A stretch of DNA of 64,000 nt from assembly GCF_022662575.1 (NCBI RefSeq), contig NZ_JALBFU010000002.1:372001-436000 (forward strand). Reading direction: 5' to 3'. Made by a program: the position numbers and the translations under genes. Positions 7,101-63,081 of this stretch are shown here, one piece after another. Below the pieces are notes generated by a model. It had not been told where the DNA came from and ran no database searches. It worked only from the letters and a program-made list of their open reading frames with translations. This stretch comes from Luteimonas aquatica (GTDB taxonomy: Bacteria; Pseudomonadota; Gammaproteobacteria; Xanthomonadales; Xanthomonadaceae). The stretch's first letter is position 1, and each line of letters begins with the position of its first letter.

Positions 7101-8231
7101 TCAGCCGCGCAATAGGATACTCGAACGCATAATCGCGCAGGTCCGCCGCTCGGCGTCGAGGATCTGCGCCACGGCCAGCATCGGGCCGCTGGCGCGCAGT
7201 CCGCCGGGAATTTTCACCGCGATGCGATAGCCGACGTCGGCGACCAGCGGTCGGAGGAAGGCGATGTCCAGATGGCTGATGATGGTGCCGGGCCCCGGCG
7301 TCTGCGTACCCAGGATTCGCGACAGTTCGGCCGCCGCGAGCACGCCGTGGGCGATGCGGCCGGGGAAGCCGGCGGCCCGGGCCGCGGCATCGTCCACGTG
7401 CAGCGGGTTGTCGTCGCCGGAGGCATCGGCGAAGTGCCGGATCTGCTCGGCGGTGAAGACCAGGTCGCGGTCGACGATGGTCTCGCCGGCATCGAGCAGC
7501 GCGTTGACGTGGAACGTGTCCAGCGCCTGGTAAAGATGGAAGCCTTCGCGCGACCACACCTTCTGCACCGCGTAGTTGTGCACTTGCGTGGAGACCTTCA
7601 TGCCGCGCGCGCCGCGCGCCTTGGCCGCGGCCTGGGTGTGCCGGATCAGGTCGCCGTAGAGTCCGCCGCCGGCCGCGTCCGGTGCCACGCCGTAGAGCAC
7701 GCCTTCGGCCTCGCCGCTGTCGGCATGGTCGTGGCAGGCGGCGAACGCGACGATGCGGTCGCCGCGCCGCGCGGCCCACAGCGCGCGGTCGACGCCCGAG
7801 ACGTGGTTCTCGGCCCATTCCTGGTATCCGGCGAGGATGTTCTCGCGCGGCAGCAGCGGGTTGGCGTGGTAGTGGGAGACGTAGTCGCGGAAGGTGTGCG
7901 CGATCAGGCCGCGCAGCTCCGGCAGGTCGGCCGGCGTAGCCAGGGAGAAGGCGACGTCGCGGTTGCGGATCGCCTGGGGCTGGTAGCGCTCGAGATCGCA
8001 GCGGTAGTAGACCAGCGTATCGGCGTGCAGCGCGGGCAAGGCCCATCGCGAAAGCGCATCGACGCCGCCGGCCGCGCCGGCCGGCACGCGCAGGATGCAG
8101 ATGTCGCTGCGCGCGGCGATGATCTGCATCGCCAGGCCCTTGGCGTCGATCCGGTCGGCCGCGCAGCGGTAGATGCGCAGGCCGAAACGCGCGGAATCGA
8201 GCGGGGAATGCTGCAGGTCGTGGGCGCTCAT
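7101..8231 (-). CDS. Fused GNAT sugar N-acyltransferase and MaoC-like hydratase
   Basis: The product is 376 aa with two domains. Residues about 15-242 resemble WecD/FdtC-type acetyltransferases acting on dTDP-4-amino-6-deoxy sugars: a YYRCDLERYQP linker, then a GNAT core whose acetyl-CoA loop is degenerate (VAPDAAGGGLYGDLI). Residues about 250-375 are a MaoC hot-dog domain with the catalytic Asp/His pair D273 and H278 in SGDDNPLHVDD, followed by IAHGVLAAAELS. MaoC enzymes hydrate enoyl-CoA to (R)-3-hydroxyacyl-CoA. The inferred role is to make and transfer a 3-hydroxyacyl group to Fuc4N. The start at 8231 overlaps the upstream glycosyltransferase stop by 4 bases. Confidence 0.8.
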   Translation of the reverse strand: MSAHDLQHSPLDSARFGLRIYRCAADRIDAKGLAMQIIAARSDICILRVPAGAAGGVDALSRWALPALHADTLVYYRCDLERYQPQAIRNRDVAFSLATPADLPELRGLIAHTFRDYVSHYHANPLLPRENILAGYQEWAENHVSGVDRALWAARRGDRIVAFAACHDHADSGEAEGVLYGVAPDAAGGGLYGDLIRHTQAAAKARGARGMKVSTQVHNYAVQKVWSREGFHLYQALDTFHVNALLDAGETIVDRDLVFTAEQIRHFADASGDDNPLHVDDAAARAAGFPGRIAHGVLAAAELSRILGTQTPGPGTIISHLDIAFLRPLVADVGYRIAVKIPGGLRASGPMLAVAQILDAERRTCAIMRSSILLRG

Positions 8232-45567: not shown

Positions 45568-46656
45568 TCAGTCGCGCAGCTCGGCGACCTGGCAGCCGGT
45601 TTCCATGCGGTCGCGTACGGCGGTCGTCACCTCGGCCGTGGTGGCCGCCTGTCCGGCCACCGCCAGGTCGGCGCTGAGGATGCCGGCGTCCAGGGTGGCG
45701 GCGACCGCCTGCTCGATGCAGGCGGCCTCGCGCTCCAGCCCGAGCGAGTGGCGCAGCAGCAGCGCGGCGCTGAGGATCGCGCCGACCGGGTTGGCGATGC
45801 CGCGCCCGGCGATGTCCGGGGCCGAGCCGTGGATGGGCTCGTAAAGTCCGACGCGGCCCTCGCCGAGCGAGGCCGACGGCAGCAGGCCCATCGAGCCGGC
45901 CAGCATCGAGGCCTCGTCGGTGAGGATGTCGCCGAACATGTTCTCGGTGACCACCACGTCGTAGGCGCGCGGGCGCGAGAGCAGGTGCATGGCCATCGAG
46001 TCGACCAGCTGGTGCTCCAGCGTGACGTCCGGGAATTCCTCGCGCGCCACGCGCGATGCGACGTCGCGCCACAGGCGCGAGGTCTCCAGCACGTTGGCCT
46101 TGTCCACCGAGGTGACGTGGCGGCGGCGCTCGCGCGCCAGCGCGCAGGCGCGCCGCACCACGCGCTCGATCTCGGCAGTGGAGTATTCGCACAGGTCGCT
46201 GGCCCGGTCGGCCTCGCGCCGCTTCTGGCCGAAATAGATGCCGCCGGTGAGCTCGCGCACCACCAGCAGGTCGACCCCGGCCAGCAGGTGCGGCTTGATC
46301 GGCGCGGCGCCGAGCGTGGCCGGATGCGGCCGCACCGGCCGCAGGTTGGCGTACAGGCCCAGGCCCTTGCGCAGCGCCAGCAGGCCCTGCTCCGGGCGCA
46401 CCTTGGCGTTGGGGTCGGACCACTTCGGCCCGCCGACGGCGCCCAGCAGCACCGCGTCGGCCTGGCGGCAGGCCTCCAGGGTGGCGGCGGGCAGCGGTTC
46501 GCCGGTGGCGTCGATGGCGGCGCCGCCGATCAGGTGCTCGCGCAGGCGGAAGGTGTGGCCGTAGCGCTGCGCGGTGAACTGCAGCGCCTCCACGGCGGCG
46601 GCGGTGACTTCGGGGCCGATGCCGTCCCCGGGCAGGACGACGATGTCAGCGTGCAT
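45568..46656 (-). CDS. leuB: 3-isopropylmalate dehydrogenase
   Basis: The product is 362 aa. The decarboxylating dehydrogenase signature is intact: [13 protein letters not shown] at the N-terminus, [41 protein letters not shown] and [19 protein letters not shown]. It oxidises 3-isopropylmalate with NAD in leucine synthesis. The start at 46656 overlaps leuD by 11 bases and has GAGG upstream. The alternative at 46677 would add 7 residues. It is the last gene of the ilv-leu operon. Confidence 0.97.
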
Positions 46657-47263
46657 GTTGGCGTGCCTCGTGAGCATGGGTTTCGTAGATTTGAATCTGC
46701 GGCTGGCGGGCGAGCAGGTAGCCCAGTTCGTCGACGCCCTCGAGCAGGCAGGTCTGCGCGAAGGTGTCGAGCGGGAAGGCGTAGGCGCGGCCGTCGGGCG
46801 TGCGCAGCTCGCGCGCGCGCACGTCGACGGTCAGCTCGTCGTCGGGGCGCTGCATCAGCGCCTGCACGTCGGCCTCGTCCAGCACCACCGGCAGCAGGCC
46901 GTTCTTGAGCGCGTTGTTGCGGAAGATGTCGGCGATCTCGCTGCTGACGATGGCCTGCAGGCCGAGGTCGGTCAGCGCCCAGGGCGCGTGCTCGCGCGAG
47001 GAGCCGCAGCCGAAGTTGCGGCCGGCCAGCAGGATGGCGCGATCGGCGTTCTCCGGCCGGTTGAAGGCGAATGCGGGATTCGGCGCGGGTTCGTCCGGCG
47101 CGCTTCCATCGCCCTGCAGGTAGCGCCAGTCGTTGAACGCGTAGCGGCCCAGGCCCTTGCGCTCGGTGGTGGAGAGAAAGCGCGCCGGGATGATCTGGTC
47201 GGTGTCGATGTTGGTCTGGCGCAGCACCACGCTGCGCGAGCGCACGAATTGCAGGCCGCTCAT
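46646..47263 (-). CDS. leuD: 3-isopropylmalate dehydratase small subunit
   Basis: The product is 205 aa. The aconitase swivel domain is clear: [35 protein letters not shown] and [15 protein letters not shown]. With LeuC it isomerises 2- to 3-isopropylmalate. Its ATG overlaps the leuC stop by 4 bases (ATGA). Length and motif spacing are normal for the proteobacterial form. Confidence 0.97.
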
Positions 47264-48735
47264 CGCGCCACCTCGGCCGTCTGGCGGGCGGCTTCGGCCT
47301 TGCGCGATGCCGCCGCGATCTGGTTGCGCGGATCGCAGACGCGGCCGTTGACCGCGGCCCAGGCGGCGGTCAGCGGCGAGGCCAGCAGGGTGCGCGCCCC
47401 CGGCCCCTGGCGGCCCTCGAAGTTGCGGTTGCTGGTGCTCACCGCCAGCTGTCCCGGTGCGACCAGGTCGCCGTTCATCGCGATGCACATGCTGCAGCCC
47501 GGCTCGCGCCATTCGGCGCCGGCCGCGCGCACCACGGCGTCGATGCCTTCGGCCTCCGCCTCGCGCTTGACCTGTTCGGAGCCGGGCACCACCAGCATGC
47601 GCACGCTGGCGGCGACGGTGCGCCCGCGCAGCACCTGGGCGACGGCGCGCATGTCGCTCAGGCGGCCGTTGGTGCAGGAGCCGACGAAGACCACGTCCAC
47701 CGGCGTGCCGTCCAGCGCGCGGCCCGGTTCCAGGCCCATGTAGTCGAGCGACTTGCGCGCGGCCTCGTCGCCGTCGGCGGGGGCGGGGATCGGCGCGTCG
47801 ACCGCGATCGCGGTGCCGGGATGGGTGCCCCAGGTCAGCGTCGGGCGGATGTCGCGCGCGTCGACGCGCACCTCGCGGTCGAAACGCGCGCCTTCGTCGC
47901 CGACGAACCGCGACCAGCGCGCCCTGGCGTGCGCGAACTCGACGCTCCCGGCGATGCCGGCGCCCGGCGCGCGCGGCGCGCGCGCCAGCCAGGCGTAGGT
48001 GGTCTCGTCCGGCGCCACCATGCCGGCGCGCGCCCCGGCCTCGATGGACATGTTGCACAGGGTCATGCGCTGCTCCATGTCCATCGCGCGGATGGTGGAG
48101 CCGCGGTACTCGATGACGTGGCCGGTGCCGCCGTTGACGCCGATCCTGCCGATGATGTGCAGGATCACGTCCTTGGCGCCGACGCCGGGCGCCAGCTCGC
48201 CCTCGACGGTGATCGCCATGGTCCGCGGCTTGCGCTGCAGCAGGCACTGCGTGGCCAGCACATGGCCGACCTCGCTGGTGCCGATGCCGAAGGCCAATGC
48301 GCCGAAGGCGCCGTGGGTGGAGGTGTGGCTGTCGCCGCAGACGATGGTCATGCCGGGCTGGGTGAAGCCGAGCTCGGGCGCGATCACGTGCACGATGCCG
48401 CGCTGCGCCGAGCCGATGTCGAACAGTTCGATGCCGAACTCGGCGCAGTTGCGCGCCAGCGTTTCCACCTGCAGCGCCGAGGCCTGGCTGGCGTAGGGCA
48501 GCTTGCCGTCTTCGCCGGCCGGCAGCGTCGGCGTGGAATGGTCCATGGTCGCCTTGGTGCGCTCCGGACGGGCCGGCGACAGCCCGCGCGCGCGCAGCTC
48601 GGAGAAGGCCTGCGGCGAGGTGACCTCGTGGATCAGGTGCAGGTCGACGTAGAGCACGGCCGGCGCGGCTTCGCTCTCGGGGACGACGACGTGCGCGTCC
48701 CACAGCTTGTCGAACAGGGTGCGGGGCGCGGTCAT
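47260..48735 (-). CDS. leuC: 3-isopropylmalate dehydratase large subunit
   Basis: The product is 491 aa. Aconitase-family signatures are present: [49 protein letters not shown] in outline, and the [4Fe-4S] ligands in VGSCTNGR and [10 protein letters not shown]. The start at 48735 overlaps the leuA stop by 4 bases. There is nothing unusual except its place inside a ten-gene ilv-leu transcript rather than a separate leu operon. Confidence 0.97.
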
Positions 48736-50348
48736 GCGGCCACCATGTCGGCGTCGGCATGGCGGCGCGCGCGCAGCACGCGGTTGGCGATGTCCAGCCA
48801 GGCGAGCGCGCTGGCCTCGATGATGTCGCGGCTGGTGCCGCGGCCTTCATAAGTAGTGCCCTCGTAGGCGCGGCCGTCGTCGTCGTCGCAGCGCACGCTC
48901 AGGTTGGCCTCGCCGCGCGCGTCGGCGCCGATGCCGACGCTGTGCACCTGGTAGCTCTCCAGGGTGAGGTTGACGCCCGTGGCCGAGGCCAGCGCCGCGA
49001 ACAGCGCATCGACCGGGCCATCGCCGAGCGCGCTCTCGCTCACGCGCTTGCCGTCCGGGTCGGACAGCTCGACCTGGGCGCTGGCGCGCTGGCCGCGGTC
49101 GCTGACCGTCATCGAGGCCAGGCGGAAGCCCTGGCCGCGCCCGCCCTCGTAGGCGTCGGTGCCGTGCATCAGCGCTTCCAGGTCGCCGTCGTCGATCACC
49201 CGCTGCTGTTCGCACAGCGCCTTGAAGTCGGCGAAGACGCGATCCAGCTGCTCGTCCTCCAGCGCGTAGCCCAGCGCGCGCAGGCGGTGCGCGACCGCGG
49301 CGCGGCCGCTGTGGCGGCCCAGCACCATTTGCGAATCCGGCCAGCCCACGTCCTCCGGACGCATGATCTCGTAGGTGCCGCGGTGGCGCAGCATGCCGTG
49401 CTGGTGGATGCCCGATTCGTGGGCGAAGGCGTTGGCGCCGACGATGGCCTTGTTGCGCTGCACCGGCATGCCGATCAGGCGGGTGAGCAGCTGCGAGGCC
49501 GGCAGCAGGCGCTGCGTGTCGATGCCGGTGTCGGCCTCGAACCAGGCGTTGCGCACCTTCAGCGCCATCACCAGCTCTTCCATCGCGCAGTTGCCGGCGC
49601 GCTCGCCGATGCCGTTGACGGTGCACTCGACCTGGCGCGCGCCGCCCTCGATCGCGGCCAGCGAGTTGGCGACCGCCATGCCGAGATCGTTGTGGCAGTG
49701 GGCGCTGAAGATCACCCCGCGGGCGCCTGGCACGGTGCCGATCAGGAATTCGAACAGCGCGCGTATTTCCTGCGGCGTGGTGTAGCCCAGGGTATCCGGC
49801 ACGTTGATGGTGCCGGCGCCGTTGACGATGGCCGCGGCGCAGGCCTCGGCCAGGAAGTCGCGCTCGGTGCGGATGCCGTCCTCGGCGGAGAACTCGACGT
49901 CGTCGACCAGGGCGCGCGCCTGCGCGACGCTGGCGGCGATGGAGTCCAGCACCTGCTGCTTGCTCATGCGCAGCTTGTGCTCGCGGTGCAGCGGGCTGGT
50001 GGACAGGAACAGGTGCAGGCGCGGGTTGGCGGCGCCTTCCAGCGCGCGCACCGAGGCCTCGATGTCCGTGGGCAGGCAGCGCGAAAGCACGCACAGCGTC
50101 GGCCGGCGCAGCTCCTTGGCGATCATCGCCGCGGCCTCGCGGTCGGATTGCGAGCTGGCCGGGAAGCCGGTCTCGATCACGTCCACGCCGAGCTCGTCGA
50201 GCGCCCGCGCCATCACCAGCTTCTGCTGCGGCGACATGCTGCAGCCGGGCGATTGCTCGCCGTCGCGCAGGGTGGTGTCGAAGATGCGCACGCGGGCGCC
50301 GCCCGGGGAGGCCGGGCTGGTCGGTACTCGACCTTCTGTCGTGTTCAT
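48732..50348 (-). CDS. leuA: 2-isopropylmalate synthase
   Basis: The product is 538 aa. [18 protein letters not shown] is the DRE-TIM metallolyase motif, with [17 protein letters not shown] for the metal site and the C-terminal leucine-binding regulatory domain ([18 protein letters not shown]). It condenses acetyl-CoA with 2-ketoisovalerate. Its ATG overlaps the ilvA stop by 4 bases, and the likely ribosome binding site GAGGAAAT lies inside the ilvA tail derived from a repeat. Confidence 0.97.
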
Positions 50349-51547
50349 GCGGGGATTTCCTCGGGGATTTCGTGTTGCGCGTTCGTCAGGGGAGAGGGAG
50401 CGGAGGCGTCGTTCCCGCGGGAGCGGGAATCCGCTGGCTTCGCGATCGCGCGGGGCGCGCCGAAGTCAGCGGATTCCCGCCTGCGCGGGAACGACGGCGT
50501 AAGTCGGGCACGCGTCGGCGGCGTGGCGGCGTCGACCTCGCGCACCCGGCGGCGCGGCTTGCGCGGCGGGCGCGGGCGCACTTCCGACAGCAGCCTGGCC
50601 AGCACCAGGGCGTCGACGTTGCCGCCGGAGACGACCGCGCACTTGCGCTTGCCGACCACGCGGCGCCCGGCCGCCAGCGCCAGGGCGCCGGCGCCCTCGG
50701 CGATGACGTGTTCCTCCAGCGCCAGCCGCACCAGGGTTTCGCGCAGCTCGGCCTCGCGCACGATGACGACGTCGTCGAGCAGGGTGTCCAGCACGCGGCG
50801 CGTCAGCTGCCCGGGCACCTTCACGCGCACGCCGTCGGCCAGGGTGGCGGCGGGTTCGCGCGCGGCGGTGTCGCCGCGCAGCGCGCGCGCCATCGCGTCC
50901 ACGCCCTCGACCTGGGCGCCGACGATGCGCACGCCCTGCCGCCGCGACGCCTGTGTCGCGGATAGGCACGTTTTCAATGCCAGCGCGACACCGGCCGCCA
51001 GGCCGCCGCCGCCGATCGGCACCAGCACCACGTCCGGCGACAGCGCCGCCAGTTCCAGGCCGACCGTGCCCTGGCCGGCGATCACGTCGGCATCGTCGAA
51101 GGCCGACAGCAGCCGGTAGTCGTGCTGCGCGGCCAGTTCCGCGGCGAAGGCCTTGGCCTCGTCGTAGCTTTCGCCGTGCAGGCGCACGGTGGCGCCCCAG
51201 TGGGCGACGCCGGCGACCTTGGTTTCCGGCGCGCAGCGCGGCATCACCGTGATCACCGGCATGCCCAGCCGGTAGGCGGCCCAGGCCAGGCCCTGGGCAT
51301 GGTTGCCGGCCGAGGCGGTGATCACCGTGCGCTCGTCGCCGCGCTCGCGCGCGGCCAGCAGGGCGTTCATCGCGCCGCGCACCTTGTAGGAGCCGGTGCG
51401 CTGCAGGTTTTCGAGCTTGAGCCAGCAGCCGAAGCGTTCGGCGTAATGGGTCGGGGTGACGTCCAGATAGCGCCGCAGCCGCGCCTGCGCCGCCAGCACG
51501 TCGGCGGCGGAGACGGGGGTGTCGCTGGCTACGGCGGGATCGTTCAT
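50345..51547 (-). CDS. ilvA: Threonine dehydratase with repeat-derived C-terminal tail
   Basis: The product is 400 aa. The PLP lysine lies in [10 protein letters not shown], followed by [15 protein letters not shown] and the cofactor loop [11 protein letters not shown]. It makes 2-ketobutyrate from threonine, the entry to isoleucine. It is the short type with no full ACT-domain regulatory region. Residues about 325-400 are a basic, proline-rich tail. Within it, SFPRRRES and DSRSRGND are the in-frame translation of a palindromic repeat at 50407-50496. Confidence 0.93.
50407..50496. repeat. 90-bp palindromic repeat inside the 3' end of ilvA
   Basis: Arms of 30 bp (50407-50436 and 50467-50496) match at 27 of 30 positions. 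Each contains the CGTTCCCGCG...GCGGGAATCC core typical of a widespread class of bacterial palindromic repeats that translate as SFPRRRES/SRxRGND. A further GGCTTCG/CGAAGTC pairing extends the hairpin inward. Confidence 0.85.
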
Positions 51548-51560
51548 GGTCGTGTCGGCC

Positions 51561-52550
51561 TCAGACCGGCGTCAGCCACTGCGCCGACGCCGATTCCTCG
51601 CCGCGCACCACGCGCGCGTACAGCGCCGCCAGCTCGCGCGTGACCGGGTTGTCGCCGAAGCGGCGCTCCTCGATCTCGGCGATCGGCGCCACTTCCGCGG
51701 CGGTGCCGCAGGCGAACACCTCGTCGGCCTCCAGCAGTTCCTCGAACGTCAGCGATCGCGACACCGCGCCGGAGAGCGTCATCAGCGTGTCGCGGGTGAT
51801 GCCGGGCAGGGCGTCGCGATGCTCGACGGCGGTGACGCGGCCGTCCTTCACGGCGAACACGTTCGCGCCGGTGCACTCGACCACGAAGCCGTCCCTGTCC
51901 ACGAACAGCGCCTCGTCGAAGCCGCGCGCCTTGCTCTCGCGCTTGGCCAGGATCGAGTTGACGTAGGCGCCGCACAGCTTCAGCGGCGGCAGCGAATCGG
52001 CGGGGTTGCGCCGCCAGCTCGACACCGCGACCCGCGCGCGCGACCCGGCCAGGTGCACCAGGGTGGGCGTGGTGGATACCATCATGTGCTGCGGGCGCCC
52101 GCTCACGTCCAGGCCGAAACCGCCCTCGCCGTACCAGGCCAGCGGGCGGATGTAGGCGTCGCGGTGGCGATTGGCGCGCAGCGTCGCCAGCGTGGCCTCG
52201 GTGGCCTGCTGCGCGTCGAACTGCATGCCCAGCAGCTCGGCGCCGCGGCGCATGCGCTCCAGGTGCTCGGGCAGGCGGAACACGGCCGCACCGCTCGCGG
52301 TGGCGTAGGCGCGGATGCCCTCGAACACGCCGCTGCCGTAATGCATGGCGTGGGTGGTCAGGTCGGCCTGCAGCGCGTCGACGTCGGCGATCTGCCCGTC
52401 GAACCAGAGCTTGGGGCGAGCATCGGCCGCTTGCGCGCCATTGGCGCGCGCCGATGCGAGCGCCCGGCCATGGACGGCCGGGCCGGACGTCATGGTGTCC
52501 GATTGCGTCGCCATGGAAGGCTGCGATGATTCCAAGAGGGTCACGGACAC
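51561..52550 (-). CDS. ilvE: Branched-chain amino-acid aminotransferase with repeat-derived N-terminus
   Basis: The product is 329 aa if the GTG at 52550 is used. The fold-IV core starts at PKLWFDGQIADVDALQ. HAMHYGSGVFEGIRAY is the family pattern, with AYVNSILAKRESKARGFDEAL carrying the PLP lysine. It makes Ile, Val and Leu from their 2-oxo acids. Residues about 10-45 are encoded by bipartite repeat copy C and its flanking hairpin. No ATG, GTG or TTG lies between the repeat and the conserved core. Starts are GTG 52550 or 52544 (overlapping ilvM), or ATG 52514 or 52493, both inside the repeat. Confidence 0.94.
   Translation of the reverse strand: MSVTLLESSQPSMATQSDTMTSGPAVHGRALASARANGAQAADARPKLWFDGQIADVDALQADLTTHAMHYGSGVFEGIRAYATASGAAVFRLPEHLERMRRGAELLGMQFDAQQATEATLATLRANRHRDAYIRPLAWYGEGGFGLDVSGRPQHMMVSTTPTLVHLAGSRARVAVSSWRRNPADSLPPLKLCGAYVNSILAKRESKARGFDEALFVDRDGFVVECTGANVFAVKDGRVTAVEHRDALPGITRDTLMTLSGAVSRSLTFEELLEADEVFACGTAAEVAPIAEIEERRFGDNPVTRELAALYARVVRGEESASAQWLTPV
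52433..52449. repeat. 8-bp GC hairpin flanking repeat copy C
   Basis: GCGCGCCA and its complement are separated by a single T, 8 bp before repeat copy C and inside the ilvE coding region. The sequence is unrelated to the hairpins that flank the other three copies. Confidence 0.6.
52458..52528 (+). repeat. Bipartite repeat, copy C, inside the ilvE coding sequence
   Basis: GAGCG, hairpin CCCGGCCATGGACGGCCGGG, CCGGACG, a 19-base unconserved spacer and CGCCATGGAAGGCTGCGATG. It reads in frame on the minus strand as the N-terminal extension of IlvE (for example SGPAVHGRA) and contains both ATG candidates for ilvE. Confidence 0.85.
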
Positions 52551-52777
52551 GGCACCACCTCGACCGACAGGCAGTCGTAGAGCTTGGCCAGCTGCTGCTG
52601 CAGCGACTCGTCGGAGCGCTCGCCCTCGACGGTCATGCGCAGGTGCCAGCGGTCGCCGTCGGGCTGCGCCTCGCCGTCCACCGACACCGGGCGGAAGCCG
52701 CGCCGCTCGGCGGTGCCGAGCACGCGGGCGAGCGCGCCCTCGGCGTGTCGCAGGGTGAGTTCAAGCTGGTATCGCAT
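52541..52777 (-). CDS. ilvM: Acetolactate synthase small subunit, IlvM type
   Basis: The product is 78 aa, a single ACT domain: MRYQLELTLRHAEGALARVLGTAERRGF in outline, with VDGEAQPDGDRWHLRMTVEG. Short IlvM-type subunits pair with IlvG in acetohydroxyacid synthase II. The ATG at 52777 overlaps the ilvG stop by 17 bases, the classic ilvGM arrangement. A longer frame to 52843 lies wholly within ilvG and is rejected. Its stop overlaps the ilvE GTG. Confidence 0.9.
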   Translation of the reverse strand: MRYQLELTLRHAEGALARVLGTAERRGFRPVSVDGEAQPDGDRWHLRMTVEGERSDESLQQQLAKLYDCLSVEVVPCP

Positions 52778-54578
52778 GGGGCAGCACCTCGGGGGGAGTG
52801 GAAGCCGGGGGCGCGGCAGGCTGCGCGGCGGCCTGCTCGGCATCCAGCATCTGCGCGTTGTTGTGGTTGGGCGGCACCAGCGGCCAGACGTTCGCGGCGG
52901 TGTCGATCGCCACGTGCAGCAGCGCCGGGCCGGGGGCGTCGAGCAGGGCGCGCAGCGCGTCCTCGACGTCGGCGGCGCGGTCCACCGACAGCGCCTCGAT
53001 GCCGAAGGCGCGCGCGACGACCGCGAAGTCCGGGTTGTCGGACAGGTCGATCTCGGAATAGCGGCGGTCGAAGAACAGTTCCTGCCACTGCCGCACCATG
53101 CCCAGGGCCTGGTTGTCGAGCAGCACGATCTTCACCGGCAGGCCGTAGCGGCGCAGCGTGGCCAGCTCCTGCACGTTCATCAGGAACGAGCCGTCGCCGC
53201 TCACGCACACCACCTGCGCCTTGGGGTTTTCCTGCTTTTGGAAAGCGAGCAGCGCGCCGATCGCCGCCGGCAGGCCGAAGCCCATCGCGCCCAGCGCGCC
53301 GCTGGTCAGGTGCTGGCGCGGATGCGCGAAGCGCCAGTGCTGCGCCACCCACATCTGGTGCTGGCCGACGTCGCAGGCGACGATGGCCTCGGGCGCCAGC
53401 TCCGACATGCGCTTGAGCAGGGACGGCGCGTAGACGCGGTCGCCGGGCGCGTCGTAGCGCGCGCCGAAGCGCAGCTTGCGCTCCAGGCACAGGCCGCGCC
53501 AGGCGCGGCGCGCCGCGGCGTGGCGGCCGTGCATCTGCGCCGCGCACGGCGGCGCCAGCCGCGACAGGCTGGCGGCCACGTCGCCCGGCACGCGCACGTC
53601 GGCCTCGCGCAGCTTGCCGATCTCGCACGCGTCCGCGTCCAGGTGCACGACGCGCGCATTGGGCGCGAACTCGGCCAGCTTGCCGGTGGCGCGGTCGTCG
53701 AAGCGGGCGCCGGCCACGATCAGCAGATCGGCTTCCTGCACCGCCATGTTCGCCGCGCGGGTGCCGTGCATGCCCAGCATGCCCAGGTTGCAGGGGTGCG
53801 CGGCCGGCAGCGCGCCTTGTGCTTTCAATGTCAGCACGGTGGGGATGCGGGTCTGCTCGACGAAATCGCGGAAGGCGTCCACCGCCTCGCCGAGCACGAG
53901 TCCGCCGCCGCCGTACACCACCGGCTTCCTCGCCTGCGCGATCAGCGCGGCGGCCTCGTGCATGGCGGCGTCCGAGGGCGGCGGCACCGCGTCGCAGGCC
54001 GCCGGCGCGTGCGCGGGCAGGTGCGAGGCGTCGGCGATCTGCACGTCCTTGGGCAGGTCGATCAGCACCGGGCCGGGCCGGCCGCTGCGCGCCAGGCGGA
54101 AGGCCTCGGCGACCACGCGCGGCAGTTCGTCGACGCGGCGCGGCAGGAAGCTGTGCTTGACGATGGGCATGGTCATGCCGAACACGTCCAGTTCCTGGAA
54201 CGCGTCGGTCCCCATCAATGCGGTCGGCACCTGGCCGGTGATGCACACCATCGGCACCGAATCGAGCATCGCGTCGGCGATGCCGGTGACCAGGTTGGAG
54301 GCGCCGGGGCCGGAGGTGGCCACGCACACGCCGACGCGGCCGCTGGCGCGCGCATAGCCGTTCGCGGCGAAGGCCGCGCCCTGCTCGTGGCGCACCAGGA
54401 TGTGTTTCAGGTCCGCACCGTGCAGGGCGTCGTAGAAGGGCATGATCGCGCCGCCCGGATAGCCGAACAGCGTGTCCACGCCCTCGGCGGCCAGCGCCTG
54501 CACCAGCCAGCGCGCCCCGTTGACCGGGGCTTGGGCGGGTTGTGCGGAGGGTTGATCGGAAGGCTCGGAGGATGACAT
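52761..54578 (-). CDS. ilvG: Acetolactate synthase large subunit, IlvG type
   Basis: The product is 605 aa. ThDP-enzyme landmarks: VDTLFGYPGGAIMPFYDAL, the catalytic Glu in LVRHEQGAAFAANGYA, FQELDVFGMTMPIVKHSF, and the ThDP motif CVSGDGSFLMNVQELATLRRYGLP, read as GDG through LLDNQALGMVRQWQ. It makes acetolactate and acetohydroxybutyrate. The C-terminus has an extra alanine/proline-rich tail. Start 54578 is preferred over 54686 because upstream residues come from the hairpin element at 54600-54713. Confidence 0.95.
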   Translation of the reverse strand: MSSSEPSDQPSAQPAQAPVNGARWLVQALAAEGVDTLFGYPGGAIMPFYDALHGADLKHILVRHEQGAAFAANGYARASGRVGVCVATSGPGASNLVTGIADAMLDSVPMVCITGQVPTALMGTDAFQELDVFGMTMPIVKHSFLPRRVDELPRVVAEAFRLARSGRPGPVLIDLPKDVQIADASHLPAHAPAACDAVPPPSDAAMHEAAALIAQARKPVVYGGGGLVLGEAVDAFRDFVEQTRIPTVLTLKAQGALPAAHPCNLGMLGMHGTRAANMAVQEADLLIVAGARFDDRATGKLAEFAPNARVVHLDADACEIGKLREADVRVPGDVAASLSRLAPPCAAQMHGRHAAARRAWRGLCLERKLRFGARYDAPGDRVYAPSLLKRMSELAPEAIVACDVGQHQMWVAQHWRFAHPRQHLTSGALGAMGFGLPAAIGALLAFQKQENPKAQVVCVSGDGSFLMNVQELATLRRYGLPVKIVLLDNQALGMVRQWQELFFDRRYSEIDLSDNPDFAVVARAFGIEALSVDRAADVEDALRALLDAPGPALLHVAIDTAANVWPLVPPNHNNAQMLDAEQAAAQPAAPPASTPPEVLPHAIPA

Positions 54579-54599
54579 CGAAAGGTCCCGGATTTTGAG

Positions 54600-54713
54600 C
54601 CCCTCTCCCGCTGGCGGGAGAGGGGTTGGGGTGAGGGCGCTTTTCGCGAAAAGCCGTCCCCTCACCCTCGCTCGCTGCGCTCGCATTTCCCTCTCCCGCC
54701 TTGCGGGAGAGGG
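54600..54713. repeat. Composite hairpin repeat between ilvC and ilvG
   Basis: Two near-identical hairpins, CCCCTCTCCCGC-TG-GCGGGAGAGGGG (54600-54625) and CCCTCTCCCGC-CTT-GCGGGAGAGGG (54689-54713), flank a GGTGAGGG/CCCTCACC pairing and a CGCTTTTCGCGAAAAG palindrome-like centre. This CCCTCTCCC...GTGAGGG motif is a familiar repeat in many proteobacterial genomes. Only one copy is in the window. It fills the 142-bp ilvC-ilvG gap. Confidence 0.8.
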
Positions 54714-54720
54714 GCTTGGG

Positions 54721-55749
54721 TCAGGCCGCCGCTTCCTCGGGCTGGGGCGATACCGGCGCGGGCGCCTTGGCGGCGGGCTTGGGCGCGTTGTCGAGCCACT
54801 TCATCGCGCCGCGCAGCTTCCTGCCGACGGCCTCGATCGGATGGTCGAGATCGGCCTGCTTGAGCGCCTTGTAGTGGGCGTTGCCGGCCGCGTACTCGGC
54901 GATCCATTGCCGGGCGAAGGTGCCGTCCTGGATCTCGGCCAGGATCTTCCTCATCTGCGCGCGCGCATGCTCGTCGATCACGTAGGGGCCGCGGGTGAGG
55001 TCGCCGTATTGCGCGGTCTCGCTGATGAACTCGTGCATGCGGGTGATGCCGCCCTCGTACAGCAGGTCGACGATCAGCTTCAGCTCGTGCAGGCACTCGT
55101 AGTAGGCGATCTCCGGCTGGTAGCCGGCCTCGACCAGGGTTTCCCAGCCGGCCTGCACCAGCTTGGTGGCGCCGCCGCACAGCACGGCCTGTTCGCCGAA
55201 CAGGTCGGTCTCGGTCTCTTCCTTGAACGTGGTCCTGATCGCGTTCTGGCGCGCGCCGCCGATGCCGCCGCAGTAGGCCAGCGCGAGCTGCTCGGCGCGG
55301 CCGCTGGAATCCTGGTGCACGGCGTAGACGGCGGGCACGCCGCGGCCGATCTCGTACTCGCGGCGCACCAGCGCGCCGGGACCCTTGGGCGCGACCAGCA
55401 CCACGTCGAGGTCGGCGCGCGGCGCGATCTGGCCGTAGTGCACGTTGAAGCCGTGCGCGAACAGCAGGCAGGCGCCGACGCGGATGTGCGGCTCGATCAC
55501 GGTGCGATAGAGCTGCGCCTGCACCATGTCCGGGGTGAGCACGGCGACGAGATCGGCATCGGCGACGGCGGCGTCGGGCGTCTTCACCTTGAAGCCGTCG
55601 GCCTTGGCCTTCTGCTCGGTGGGGCCGCCGGGACGCAGGCCGACGGTGACGTCGAAGCCGGAGTCGCGCAGGTTGAGGGCATGGGCGCGGCCCTGGCTGC
55701 CGTAGCCGATCACGGCGATCTTGGGTTGGAAGGCGGTCGTGGCGTTCAT
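54721..55749 (-). CDS. ilvC: Ketol-acid reductoisomerase, class I
   Basis: The product is 342 aa. The Rossmann motif [20 protein letters not shown] is followed by a cofactor loop [13 protein letters not shown]. The C-terminal knotted domain shows [17 protein letters not shown] and [18 protein letters not shown]. It performs the second step of Ile/Val synthesis with NADPH and magnesium. An alanine/proline-rich tail of about 20 residues ends the protein. It starts 57 bp after the ilvD stop. Confidence 0.97.
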
Positions 55750-55806
55750 GGGGAGGGTTCCAGTGGATGTGTTGGGCGGAAGGGCGGTCGGGTCAGGCGA
55801 AGCGAA

Positions 55807-57552
55807 TCAAGCAAGAGCGATTTGCGTGCGTTCGTCGGGGGCCGAGGCCACCAGCGTCGCGGCGATGCGTTTGTTCTCGTCGAGCGGTCCGGGCGCGGTC
55901 ACCGCGCCCTTCGAGGCCGAGCCGACGTCGCGCGCGTACTTGGCCAGCACGCCGGTGGTCACGCGCGGGGCGATGCGCGCGGGCGCGCGCTGCGCCAGGT
56001 CGGCATCGGCGTCGAGTCGGCGCGTGGCGACGTCGATGGTCACGCGGTCGCCGTCGCGCAGCCGCGCGATCGGACCGCCGCGCGCGGCCTCCGGGCAGAC
56101 GTGGCCGACCATGAAGCCGTGCGTGGCGCCGCTGAAGCGGCCGTCGGTGAGCAGGGCGACGTCGTTGCCCAGCCCCTGGCCGACCAGGGCGGCGGTGACC
56201 GCCAGCATCTCGCGCATGCCGGGGCCGCCGGCCGGGCCCTCGAAGCGGATCACCACCACGTCGCCGGCGCGGATCTGCCGCGCCTGCACGGCGGCGAAGG
56301 CGGCTTCCTCGCTGTCGAACACGCGCGCCGGGCCGGTGTGGCGCTCGCGGCCGTGGCCGGCGAGCTTGACGATGCAGCCCTCGGGCGCGAGGTTGCCGTA
56401 GAGGATGGAATAGCCGCCGCGCGGCTTGATCGGGTCGCCGATCGGGCGCACCACGTCCTGCGCCGCCGACACGGCGGCGGCGTCGACCTCCGCGAAGAAG
56501 CTGCGGCCGGTGACCGTCGGAATGTCCTCGATCAGGCTGGCCGCCCGCAGCTCGCGCGCCACCAGCGCCGCGCCGCCGTACTCGAACATTTCCGCCGCGG
56601 TGTAGCGGCCGCCCGGCTTCAGGTCGGCGATCACCGGCGTGGCGGCGCTGGCCGCCTCGAATTCCTCCAGGTCGAAGGGCACGCCGGCCTCGTGCGCGAT
56701 CGCCAGCAGGTGCAGCGCCGCGTTGGTGGAACCGGCGGTGGCCGAGACCGCGCGCGCCGCGTTGCGCAGCGCGGCGAGAGAGAGAAGGTCGCGCGGTCTC
56801 GGTCCGCCATCGCGCATGCGCGCCATCACCAGCTCGCCGCATGCGCGGGCGGCGGCCGGTTTCTCGGCGTGGATCGCCGGAATGTCGTTCAGCCCCAGCG
56901 GCGACAGGCCGAGGAAGGTGAGCACCATCGCCATGGTGTTGGCGGTGAACTGGCCGCCGCAGGCGCCGGCGCCGGGGCAGGCGTGCGATTCGATGCGGTG
57001 CAGCTCGGCGTCGTCGATGCGCCCGGCCGAATGCGCGCCGACCGCTTCGAACACGTCCTGCACGGTCAGCGGCTTGTCGTCGCTGGCGCCCTGCTTGGAC
57101 GGGCAGCGGCCCGGCATGATGGTGCCGCCGTACAGGATCACCGTCGGGATATCCAATCGCGCGGCCGCCATCGCCGCGGCGGGGATGGTCTTGTCGCAGC
57201 CCACCAGCAGCACCATCGCGTCCAGGCAGTGGCCGCTGACCGCCAGCTCGATCGAATCGGCGATGGTCTCGCGCGAGGCCAGCGAGGCGCGCATGCCGTC
57301 CGAGCCCATGGCGATGCCGTCGGTGACGGCGATGGTGTTGAACTCGATCGGCGTGCCGCCCGCCTCCAGCACGCCGCGGCGCACGTCCTGGGCCAGGTCG
57401 CGCAGGGTGATGTTGCAGGGCGAGACGTCGGACCAGGTGTGGATCACGCCGACGAAGGGCTTGGCGATGGCCGCATCGTCCAGCCCGGTGGCGCGCAGCA
57501 TGGCGCGCGCGGGGGCGTGGGCGGGGCCTTGCTTGATGGAGTTGCTTCTCAC
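55807..57552 (-). CDS. ilvD: Dihydroxy-acid dehydratase
   Basis: The product is 581 aa from a GTG start. Fe-S ligands are visible in [12 protein letters not shown] and [34 protein letters not shown] and [16 protein letters not shown] match the IlvD/Edd family. It makes 2-ketoisovalerate and 2-keto-3-methylvalerate. The GTG at 57552 gives [10 protein letters not shown], colinear with the family. The longer frame to 57636 enters the attenuator region and is rejected. It is the first structural gene after the attenuator. Confidence 0.96.
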
Positions 57553-57640
57553 GAACCAGTGTTCCGTTGCTGCGAATCCTTCGCAGGAACCCGCGCATCC
57601 GCGCGCGGGCGTTGATTTCGGAATCCAGGCCGTCAAAACG

Positions 57641-57669
57641 AAAAACCCCGCGCCTTTTGGGCGCGGGGT
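57641..57669 (-). terminator. ilv attenuator terminator
   Basis: On the minus strand the stem CCCCGCGCC/GGCGCGGGG (plus an outer A-T pair) with a 5-base loop is followed by TTTTTCGTTTT. It lies between the ilvL stop (57704) and the ilvD start (57552). Its 5' arm can pair instead with GGCGCGGG in the leader (57720-57727), forming an antiterminator. Confidence 0.88.
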
Positions 57670-57703
57670 CTTGGTTCTTTCGACCTGGGTTTTGCTTTTT
57701 TAC

Positions 57704-57856
57704 TTACGCAAACCCGACTCCCGCGCCTGTTTGGACGGTAATAAGGACGAGTACGAGAATAAGGCCGACGATCGGCAGCGACGGCAGCAGCCAGTCCTTC
57801 GCCACGTCGTTCGACGTGGTCTGCAGGACTCGCGGATGGTTGTTGCGCTGCGTCAT
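57704..57856 (-). CDS. ilvL: ilv operon leader peptide (attenuator)
   Basis: A 50-codon frame beginning MTQRNNHPRV and ending GAGVGFA. Codons 29-41 read IVGLILVLVLITV, and the first eleven of these include CTT twice, ATT twice and GTA, codons that are scarce in genes of this GC content. Directly downstream lies GGCGCGGG, complementary to the terminator's first arm. Ribosome stalling at the branched-chain codons would therefore favour the antiterminator. No Shine-Dalgarno sequence precedes the ATG. A short single-helix membrane protein is the alternative reading but is less likely. Confidence 0.85.
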   Translation of the reverse strand: MTQRNNHPRVLQTTSNDVAKDWLLPSLPIVGLILVLVLITVQTGAGVGFA

Positions 57857-57863
57857 GTGGGCG

Positions 57864-57893
57864 AGAAAACCATGCCCGAAGCGGGCTTGTCAA
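57864..57893 (-). promoter_or_regulatory. Candidate promoter of the ilv-leu operon
   Basis: A perfect -35 TTGACA on the minus strand (57888-57893) is followed 18 bp later by TTTTCT, a poor -10 (3 of 6). The implied start point is within a base or two of the ilvL ATG, consistent with a leaderless leader peptide. It lies in the 114 bp after thrC. Confidence 0.4.
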
Positions 57894-57970
57894 CAGTTTC
57901 AGTTAGAACTTTTCGCCATGAAGCGGTTTTCGTCGCACCGGGCGGGGAAGCCTGCCTGAAGGCGCCGCGC

Positions 57971-59314
57971 TTAATAGGAGCCGCGCTCAATGGGCGCGGC
58001 GGCGAGCAGCGCGCGCAGCGCGGCGTAGTCGGCCGGCAGCGCATCGGCCCGCGCCGGCTGCGCCAGCGAGGCGGCCAGGGCCGGCGGCGGTTCGACCGGA
58101 TGCCCCACCAGGGGCTCGACGATGCTCTCGAACTTGGCCGGATGCGCGGTGGCCGCCACCGCCCAGGGGCGCTCGTCCCCCTGTTCGCGCAATCGTTCCA
58201 GCAGAAACAATCCGGTCGCGGTATGCGGGCAGGGCACGACGCCGTGCCGGCGCGGCGCCGCGGCGATGGTGGCGCGAATGGTCGCATCGTCCACGCCCTG
58301 GACCTGGATCGCGCCGCGCAGCCGGGCGTCGTCGCCGTCATGCCAATGGCGCAGCCGCTCGAAGTTGCTGGGCGCGCCGACGTCCATGGCATTGGCCAGG
58401 GTGGCGCGGGTCGGCCGCGGCGCGTAGTCCTCGCCGGCGAAATAGCGCGGCAGGGTGTCGTTGGCATTGGTGGCCAGGCGGATCTCGCCGACCGGCGCGC
58501 CCATGCGCCGCGCCACCAGCGCGGCGCAGGCGTTGCCGAGGTTGCCGGTGGGCACGATGACATTGAGCGCATCGCCGTGTTCGGCCGCGAAGCGGGTCGC
58601 CGCGTGCGCGTAGTAGGCCGCCTGCGGCAGCAGCCGGCCGAGGCTGATGCTGTTGGCCGAGCTCAGCGGCACCAGGCGGCGCAGGTCGCCGTCGGCGAGC
58701 GCCTGCTTGGCCAGGCGCTGGCAGTCGTCGAAGCTGCCGTCGATGCGGAAGGCGCGCACGTTCTCGCCCCAGCAGCCCAGTCCATGCGCCTGGCGCGGCG
58801 AGACCTTGCCGTCGGGGTACAGGATCACGACCTGGAAGCCGGGACGGCGGTGGAAGGCGGCGGCCACCGCGGCGCCGGTGTCGCCGGAGGTGGCGACCAG
58901 GATCGTGTTGGTCGGAGCCGTGCCGGTCGCCGCGTCGGCGGCACGCAGGCCGGCAAGCGCGCCGGCCAGGAAGCGCGCCGCGTAATCCTTGAACGCCGCC
59001 GTGGGGCCGTGGAACAGCTCGAACAGGAAATCGCGATCTGGCCCGGCGCCATCGCCGCGCATCGGGCGCAGCGGCGCGTCGAAGGAATAGGCCTGGTCGC
59101 AGATCGCAGCCAGCCGGTCGCGCAGCGACGACTCGGCGAAGTAGGGCGCCAGCACCGCCTGCGCGGTGTCGGCGAGGCGGGCCGTCGGTTGCCAGGATGC
59201 GAGCATCGGAATGCGCTCGGGTACGTACAGGCCGCCATCGGGGGCGAGGCCGGCACTGAGGGCATCGTCGATGGCGGTGGGCGGGATCTGTCCGCGCGTG
59301 CTGACGAATTTCAT
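57971..59314 (-). CDS. thrC: Threonine synthase
   Basis: The product is 447 aa. KFVSTRG opens the protein, and the PLP lysine lies in FHGPTAAFKDYAARF. ILVATSGDTGAAVAAAF, NSISLGRLLPQAAYY and VPTGNLGNACAALVARRMG follow, the long (type I) threonine synthase pattern. It converts O-phosphohomoserine to threonine. The ATG at 59314 lies 10 bp after the thrB stop. It is the last thr gene, and the ilv promoter region follows its stop. Confidence 0.96.
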   Translation of the reverse strand: MKFVSTRGQIPPTAIDDALSAGLAPDGGLYVPERIPMLASWQPTARLADTAQAVLAPYFAESSLRDRLAAICDQAYSFDAPLRPMRGDGAGPDRDFLFELFHGPTAAFKDYAARFLAGALAGLRAADAATGTAPTNTILVATSGDTGAAVAAAFHRRPGFQVVILYPDGKVSPRQAHGLGCWGENVRAFRIDGSFDDCQRLAKQALADGDLRRLVPLSSANSISLGRLLPQAAYYAHAATRFAAEHGDALNVIVPTGNLGNACAALVARRMGAPVGEIRLATNANDTLPRYFAGEDYAPRPTRATLANAMDVGAPSNFERLRHWHDGDDARLRGAIQVQGVDDATIRATIAAAPRRHGVVPCPHTATGLFLLERLREQGDERPWAVAATAHPAKFESIVEPLVGHPVEPPPALAASLAQPARADALPADYAALRALLAAAPIERGSY

Positions 59315-62958: not shown

Positions 62959-63081
62959 TTAGGTGGACACGCCCGTCCGCACCTCGGTCGAGGTGGTGGT
63001 CGTGGTGGTAATCGTCATCGCGGCCGCGACCGGGCCGATGGCCGGGCGGACGGGGCGGGCGAGGGCGGGGACGGCGTGCAT
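62959..63081 (-). CDS. thrL: thr operon leader peptide
   Basis: A 40-codon frame from the ATG at 63081 ends MTITTTTTTSTEVRTGVST. Seven of the eight codons after Met22 specify Thr, and one Ile, as expected for control by threonine and isoleucine charging. A shorter start at 63018 would give 19 residues. Neither has a Shine-Dalgarno sequence. The 63081 start is favoured because a promoter (-35 TTGACG at 63114-63119, weak -10 near 63091) would begin the mRNA almost at that ATG. Confidence 0.8.
   Translation of the reverse strand: MHAVPALARPVRPAIGPVAAAMTITTTTTTSTEVRTGVST

Follow-up and report, generated by a model that had tools for sequence, protein, structure and literature searches.

A predicted leaderless attenuator of the ilv-leu operon in Luteimonas aquatica and its homologues across the order Lysobacterales

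The attenuators of the enterobacterial ilvGMEDA, ilvBN, and leu operons share with the element described here a leader peptide whose regulatory codons stand in runs, an antiterminator and a terminator that exclude each other, and a biosynthetic operon downstream. Unlike the enterobacterial systems as they are generally known, the Lysobacterales leaders have their ATG at the predicted transcription start, without a Shine-Dalgarno sequence, and possess a longer ORF (34 to 62 codons) and a predicted antiterminator in which a three-way junction surrounds the hairpin with the stop codon. The Rfam Leu_leader model (RF00512) aligned end to end with 29.7 bits (E = 2.6e-4), below its gathering score of 50; no Rfam family matched at curated gathering thresholds, and relaxed thresholds returned only the sub-threshold Leu_leader and chance matches. 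Leaderless attenuation has been described elsewhere. In Sinorhizobium meliloti, the leader ORF's own ATG stands at the head of the trpLE(G) RNA (peTrpL / rnTrpL), which carries a terminator/antiterminator switch (PMC7298713). The Lysobacterales leader resembles it in this switch and in its ATG-first RNA, predicted here, whereas the S. meliloti system senses tryptophan, has 14 codons, belongs to an alphaproteobacterium, and is unrelated in sequence. In actinobacteria, leaderless small ORFs with regulatory codons precede amino acid genes, including Streptomyces LeuL1/LeuL2 and Corynebacterium glutamicum ilvBNC (PMC8079986; PMC11857589), and PMC13236596 cites Canestrari et al. 2020 for the mycobacterial polycysteine leaders as leaderless attenuator ORFs. 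The actinobacterial examples differ in having short ORFs, other structures and, in some cases, no intrinsic terminator. To our knowledge, there is no reason to expect sequence kinship with them. The mechanism considered below is classical, and its leaderless start is not new in kind, since leaderless attenuator ORFs are already established in S. meliloti and actinobacteria. Full-text literature searches returned no description of the present leader family and no report of leaderless attenuation as the rule for a gammaproteobacterial order, with the most relevant older survey lying outside the search; the work of Vitreschak et al. 2004 would be the likeliest earlier prediction of proteobacterial attenuators.

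Within the window, the whole 64,000-nt stretch of L. aquatica DNA that was analyzed, the minus strand ahead of ilvD very probably encodes a leaderless leader mRNA that serves the ilv-leu operon as a ribosome-mediated transcription attenuator. The leader ORF (ilvL; 57704 to 57856) runs from an ATG at 57856 to a TAA at 57706 to 57704, and its 50 codons specify MTQRNNHPRVLQTTSNDVAKDWLLPSLPIVGLILVLVLITVQTGAGVGFA, whose densest 12-residue segment contains 10 residues that are isoleucine, leucine, or valine. The initial annotation of this region had named such a 50-codon leader, and this ORF and all other elements that it listed were recovered on the minus strand between 57641 and 57856. The RNA of that interval is predicted to fold more stably than dinucleotide shuffles (z = -3.9), none of which equaled it. 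Downstream, NCBIfam models identified ilvD, ilvC, ilvG, ilvE, threonine dehydratase (ilvA), leuA, leuC, leuD, and leuB, and inspection added an IlvM-like ORF at 52777 to 52541, between ilvG and ilvE. Between 57640 and 45500, the minus strand has no site resembling an intrinsic terminator. These data agree with the earlier proposal that the leader controls ten genes, and the predicted controlled operon is ilvD-ilvC-ilvG-ilvM-ilvE-ilvA-leuA-leuC-leuD-leuB (45568 to 57552). By homology (MRSD/VKSD...KxGPxRAPARAML), ilvD starts with the GTG at 57552, 89 nt below 57641.

Searches with ilvD and with the leader peptide yielded 55 distinct leaders, mostly from Lysobacteraceae and including those of Luteimonas, Lysobacter, Thermomonas, and Arenimonas. 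Of these, 51 went into a covariance model (R1), which had matches in 198 of 300 genomes from the order Lysobacterales (Xanthomonadales). In a class-wide sample, 26 of 274 genomes were matched, three from Lysobacteraceae and the others weakly (best 1.1e-6). The same layout was found in all 20 stretches sampled from other genera and families, where the branched-chain genes behind the element were ilvC, leuA, ilvD, ilvG, or an ilvE-type transaminase gene. After 40 stretches were added, 124 nonredundant leaders of the order were retained, located upstream of ilvD, ilvC, leuA, ilvG, or ilvE, all of which keep a short leader ORF rich in isoleucine, leucine, and valine.

Promoter architecture across these leaders points to a transcript that begins at the leader ATG. 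The -35 element TTGACA (57888 to 57893, minus strand), which had gone unnoticed previously, occurs without mismatch in 118 of the 124 homologues, and the other six match it at 5/6 positions. In all 118, the in-frame leader ATG lies 35 to 40 nt from the first base of TTGACA, mostly 36 to 37, and this distance is 37 nt in L. aquatica. Here, an extended -10 (57864 to 57872) consists of TG (57872 to 57871), one base, and the hexamer TTTTCT (57869 to 57864), a weak match to TATAAT. Column frequencies over the 124 promoters likewise show TG at spacer positions 16 and 17 (57% and 62%) and T at positions 1 (87%) and 6 (85%) of the hexamer, so that the extended -10 (TG, one base, T....T) ends about 7 nt ahead of the ATG. 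Position -1 is C in 96% of leaders, which with A at +1 gives a pyrimidine/purine initiator. No conserved Shine-Dalgarno sequence precedes the ATG in the 124 leaders, and in 109 of them no match to TAAGGAGGTGA exceeds 3 nt. Read most simply, these features would place +1 or +2 at the A of this ATG, and in L. aquatica transcription is predicted to start at 57856 to 57857, on that A or on the base preceding it. This start would lie 7 nt below the -10, at a C/A initiator. The spacing, the C at -1, and the missing Shine-Dalgarno sequence thus favor the earlier suggestion of an ATG at the transcription start with no ribosome binding site. An attenuator of the same kind might instead be translated from a longer 5' UTR made from another promoter, and the weak -10 hexamer, together with a strict sigma-70 scan in which no promoter passed at this locus, speaks for that arrangement. 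We consider it very unlikely given the fixed spacing of TTGACA and the extended -10, the near-invariant C at -1, and the short matches to TAAGGAGGTGA; an AGGAG does precede the ATG of L167, an out-of-order leader of another type.

The leader ORF is followed by a 13-pair intrinsic terminator hairpin (57642 to 57672, minus strand) and the U-tract TTTTTCGTTTT (57635 to 57645), in keeping with the strong terminator originally annotated 89 nt before ilvD. Its stem is paired in 97.8% of cells in 50 sequences, with compensatory changes in three pairs. The 5' arm of the terminator contains CCCGCGCC (57667 to 57660), and we confirmed that GGCGCGGG (57727 to 57720) is its exact complement; CCCGCGCC would therefore be common to the terminator 5' arm and the 3' strand of an antiterminator helix, P1, whose 5' strand is GGCGCGGG. 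Alignment A1 was fitted without using structure, and 94.8% of its P1 cells are paired. One P1 position is C-G in 37 sequences, U-A in nine, and A-U in one, and the terminator pair switches along with it (G-C 36, A-U 8, U-A 2, C-G 1). The same P1 pair is U-A in 51, C-G in 11, and A-U in 10 of 85 further matches, loci outside model building that were aligned with the model, an alignment that leans toward the structure; in these model-aligned matches the P1 covariation score was reached by none of 500 shuffles. Independently of any alignment, the computed pairing energies of each leader's arm region and its own terminator arm average -16.5 kcal/mol, as against -14.6 +/- 0.15 kcal/mol when arms are permuted, and no permutation fell below -15.1 kcal/mol.

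When the RNA is folded before the terminator 3' arm is made, most family members are predicted to form a three-way junction in which P1 closes two further hairpins, and these antiterminator-state folds have a mean z of -4.3 (n = 53 sequences). In L. aquatica, the loop of P2 (GGGTTTGC / GCAAAACCC; 57687 to 57715, minus strand) contains the stop codon of the leader, and this hairpin is predicted for the antiterminator state of most homologues. P3 (GGTCGAAAGAACC; 57673 to 57685) is a mini-hairpin that is weaker outside the family. In the further sequences under the model-fitted alignment, each of the six P2 pairs has compensatory changes, and 60% of P2 and 71% of P3 cells are paired; both are less regular outside the family. 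The initial annotation had proposed a single antiterminator helix and had not noticed P2 or P3 within it. A covarying helix exclusive with the terminator stands, but modeling suggests that it is one part of a larger three-way junction and not the entire antiterminator. In ribosome-free folds the arm is mostly paired to upstream RNA, with a partner that forms no conserved, covarying helix, and no covariation was found for a conserved 1:2 protector helix in the homologous leaders. With the exception of that protector helix, the locus carries the testable defining features of classical ilv and leu attenuators.

From the elements, covariation, codon choice, and promoter-to-ATG spacing seen by comparison, we infer the RNA ends, ribosome positions, and starvation response of the following model. 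Transcription would start at or beside the A of the first leader codon, with ribosomes loading on the 5'-terminal AUG. When charged leucine, isoleucine, or valine tRNA is scarce, a ribosome would stall on CTT ATT CTC GTA CTC GTC CTT ATT, and with its A-site on the last ATT its front edge would halt just before GGCGCGGG. The free GGCGCGGG could then pair with CCCGCGCC, enclosing P2 and P3 in the three-way junction, which would block the terminator and allow the ten genes to be transcribed. With amino acids plentiful, the ribosome would reach the stop codon in the P2 loop, covering P2 and about half of the arm and releasing CCCGCGCC for the terminator. Without translation, the arm would be mostly sequestered by upstream RNA, which would make termination the default. 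A ribosome occupies about 11 nt ahead of the first A-site base. On this assumed footprint, stalling with the last ATT (57742 to 57740) in the A-site would put the ribosome's edge near 57731 and keep the arm, which begins at 57727, free, and a ribosome at the stop codon (57706) would reach back to about 57723, blocking P2 and half of P1. The distance from the last ATT to the arm is 15 nt in 69 leaders, including that of L. aquatica, and 12 nt in 36, which together are nearly all.

The regulatory codon run, CTT ATT CTC GTA CTC GTC CTT ATT ACC GTC (57734 to 57763, minus strand), contains no CTG, ATC, or GTG from 57763 onward, and its bias is conserved across the order in the direction opposite to that of downstream genes. 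With the genes downstream of the leaders as the background, ATT accounts for 93% of the isoleucine codons that all leaders have in their 12-codon core (7% in the background). For valine, GTA accounts for 55% (3%) and GTG for 5% (54%), and for leucine, CTT accounts for 43% (3%) and CTG for 4% (68%). The N-terminal part of the leaders is much nearer to normal usage than the core. The replacement of CTG, ATC, and GTG by CTT, ATT, and GTA first noted in L. aquatica therefore holds order-wide. Because ATT and ATC are decoded by one tRNA, isoacceptor charging alone is insufficient for the ATT preference. Protector pairing was rejected as the main cause of codon choice, as synonymous recoding from downstream-gene usage shifts arm sequestration just from 0.85 to 0.82. 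On these two grounds, slow wobble decoding is our preferred, if unproven, cause of the rare-codon choice. Selection of sensitive synonymous codons is expected on theoretical grounds (PMC1183508).

Across related leaders, codons and paired arms are thus conserved, with compensatory changes, and we saw no relatives that keep the peptide's other residues while losing the hairpins; its N-terminal half changes in both length and sequence, and the codon run, arm, and terminator stay. This pattern bears on two readings in which the peptide itself matters. Could the terminator merely end the upstream thrABC operon, with the ORF being the gene of a small membrane protein? The thrC gene ends at 57971 with no terminator-like site between it and the ilv promoter (57893 to 57971), and the leader peptide, with its hydrophobic helix LLPSLPIVGLILVLVLITVQTGAG, could span a membrane. 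However, the element stands before different branched-chain genes in other genera and families, has its own promoter at a conserved spacing, and conserves synonymous codons and RNA arms while the N-terminal half is free to vary. It is also lost along with the pathway: 35 of 52 genomes of the genus of L. aquatica carry the element, and ilvC is missing in all 17 that do not, as it is in all 12 of the listed same-family genomes without the element, which ties the element to the pathway. We therefore reject this reading on operon context, codon and arm conservation, the separate promoter, and co-loss, and accord it almost no probability.

Nearly as improbable is a nascent-chain arrest peptide or a trans-acting peptide, for whose function MTQR and GAGxGF would be kept. 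Conservation of MTQR/MTHR/MSQR and (T/S)GAGxGF does extend beyond the branched residues, and action of an attenuator peptide in trans has a precedent in the S. meliloti peTrpL (PMC7298713). Against this, the GAG and GF codons fall on the P1 and P2 strands, a changed arm (GGTAGCGGG) converts the residues to GSG, many leaders end directly after GAG, and selection acts on the core codons beyond the residues that they encode. Order-wide, the first leader codons ATGACGCAGCGC (57845 to 57856 and the homologous leaders) are conserved at 59 to 90% per base, and neither a base-pairing nor a peptide cause was found for this.

Since nothing resembling a terminator separates thrC from the ilv promoter, thrABC transcripts may likewise end at the terminator of the attenuator. 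It is conceivable, though we tend to doubt it, that the leaderless start is part of the logic: the 5'-terminal AUG exists only on RNAs begun at the ilv promoter, so in thrABC transcripts that run in, the leader would go untranslated and termination would always follow. If true, this would insulate the ten genes from transcription of the threonine operon, tie their expression to 70S-type initiation, and possibly represent a general design for the branched-chain and threonine attenuators of the order. The neighboring thrABC operon has a leader of its own, a second predicted leaderless one upstream of its first gene, thrA (62959 to 63081, minus strand; MHAVPALARPVRPAIGPVAAAMTITTTTTTSTEVRTGVST), with the threonine/isoleucine run TITTTTTTST. 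A TTGACG lies 38 nt ahead of its ATG, and in most thr leaders of family relatives the -35-to-ATG distance is 36 to 38 nt when the start is picked by the best -35 match. In this ORF, GGTGCGGA is complementary to TCCGCACC at the hairpin behind it; a U-tract is absent there in the L. aquatica genome. Before hisG, no histidine-run leader was found under the rule used. A few thr leaders also start with MTQR or MTHR (L217, L218).

Taken at the level of the order, these leaders constitute a well-bounded gammaproteobacterial attenuator family that is apparently invariably leaderless, and annotate a regulator that Rfam misses. The family makes it testable how a leaderless start affects the synchrony of ribosome and polymerase during attenuation, and why the rarest synonymous codons are chosen for the runs, with ATT preferred to ATC although the two share one tRNA.

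The genus genomes without ilvC (Pfam PF01450; 17 of 52) are G003, G007, G013, G016-G019, G026, G029, G033, G036, G037, G040, G044, and G049-G051, which suggests that branched-chain auxotrophy is widespread in the genus. Dokdonella fugitiva RH2WT43 (L049 / L161), which is placed outside Lysobacteraceae, has an ilvD (82%) and a leader that are both near the Lysobacteraceae type, and its operon was possibly transferred horizontally. In a genome of family f3 (G096), locus L159 contains three R1 matches within 11 kb (2686 to 2827, 7494 to 7627, and 7966 to 8104), standing before leuA and an ilvE-type gene, among others, as clustered attenuators.
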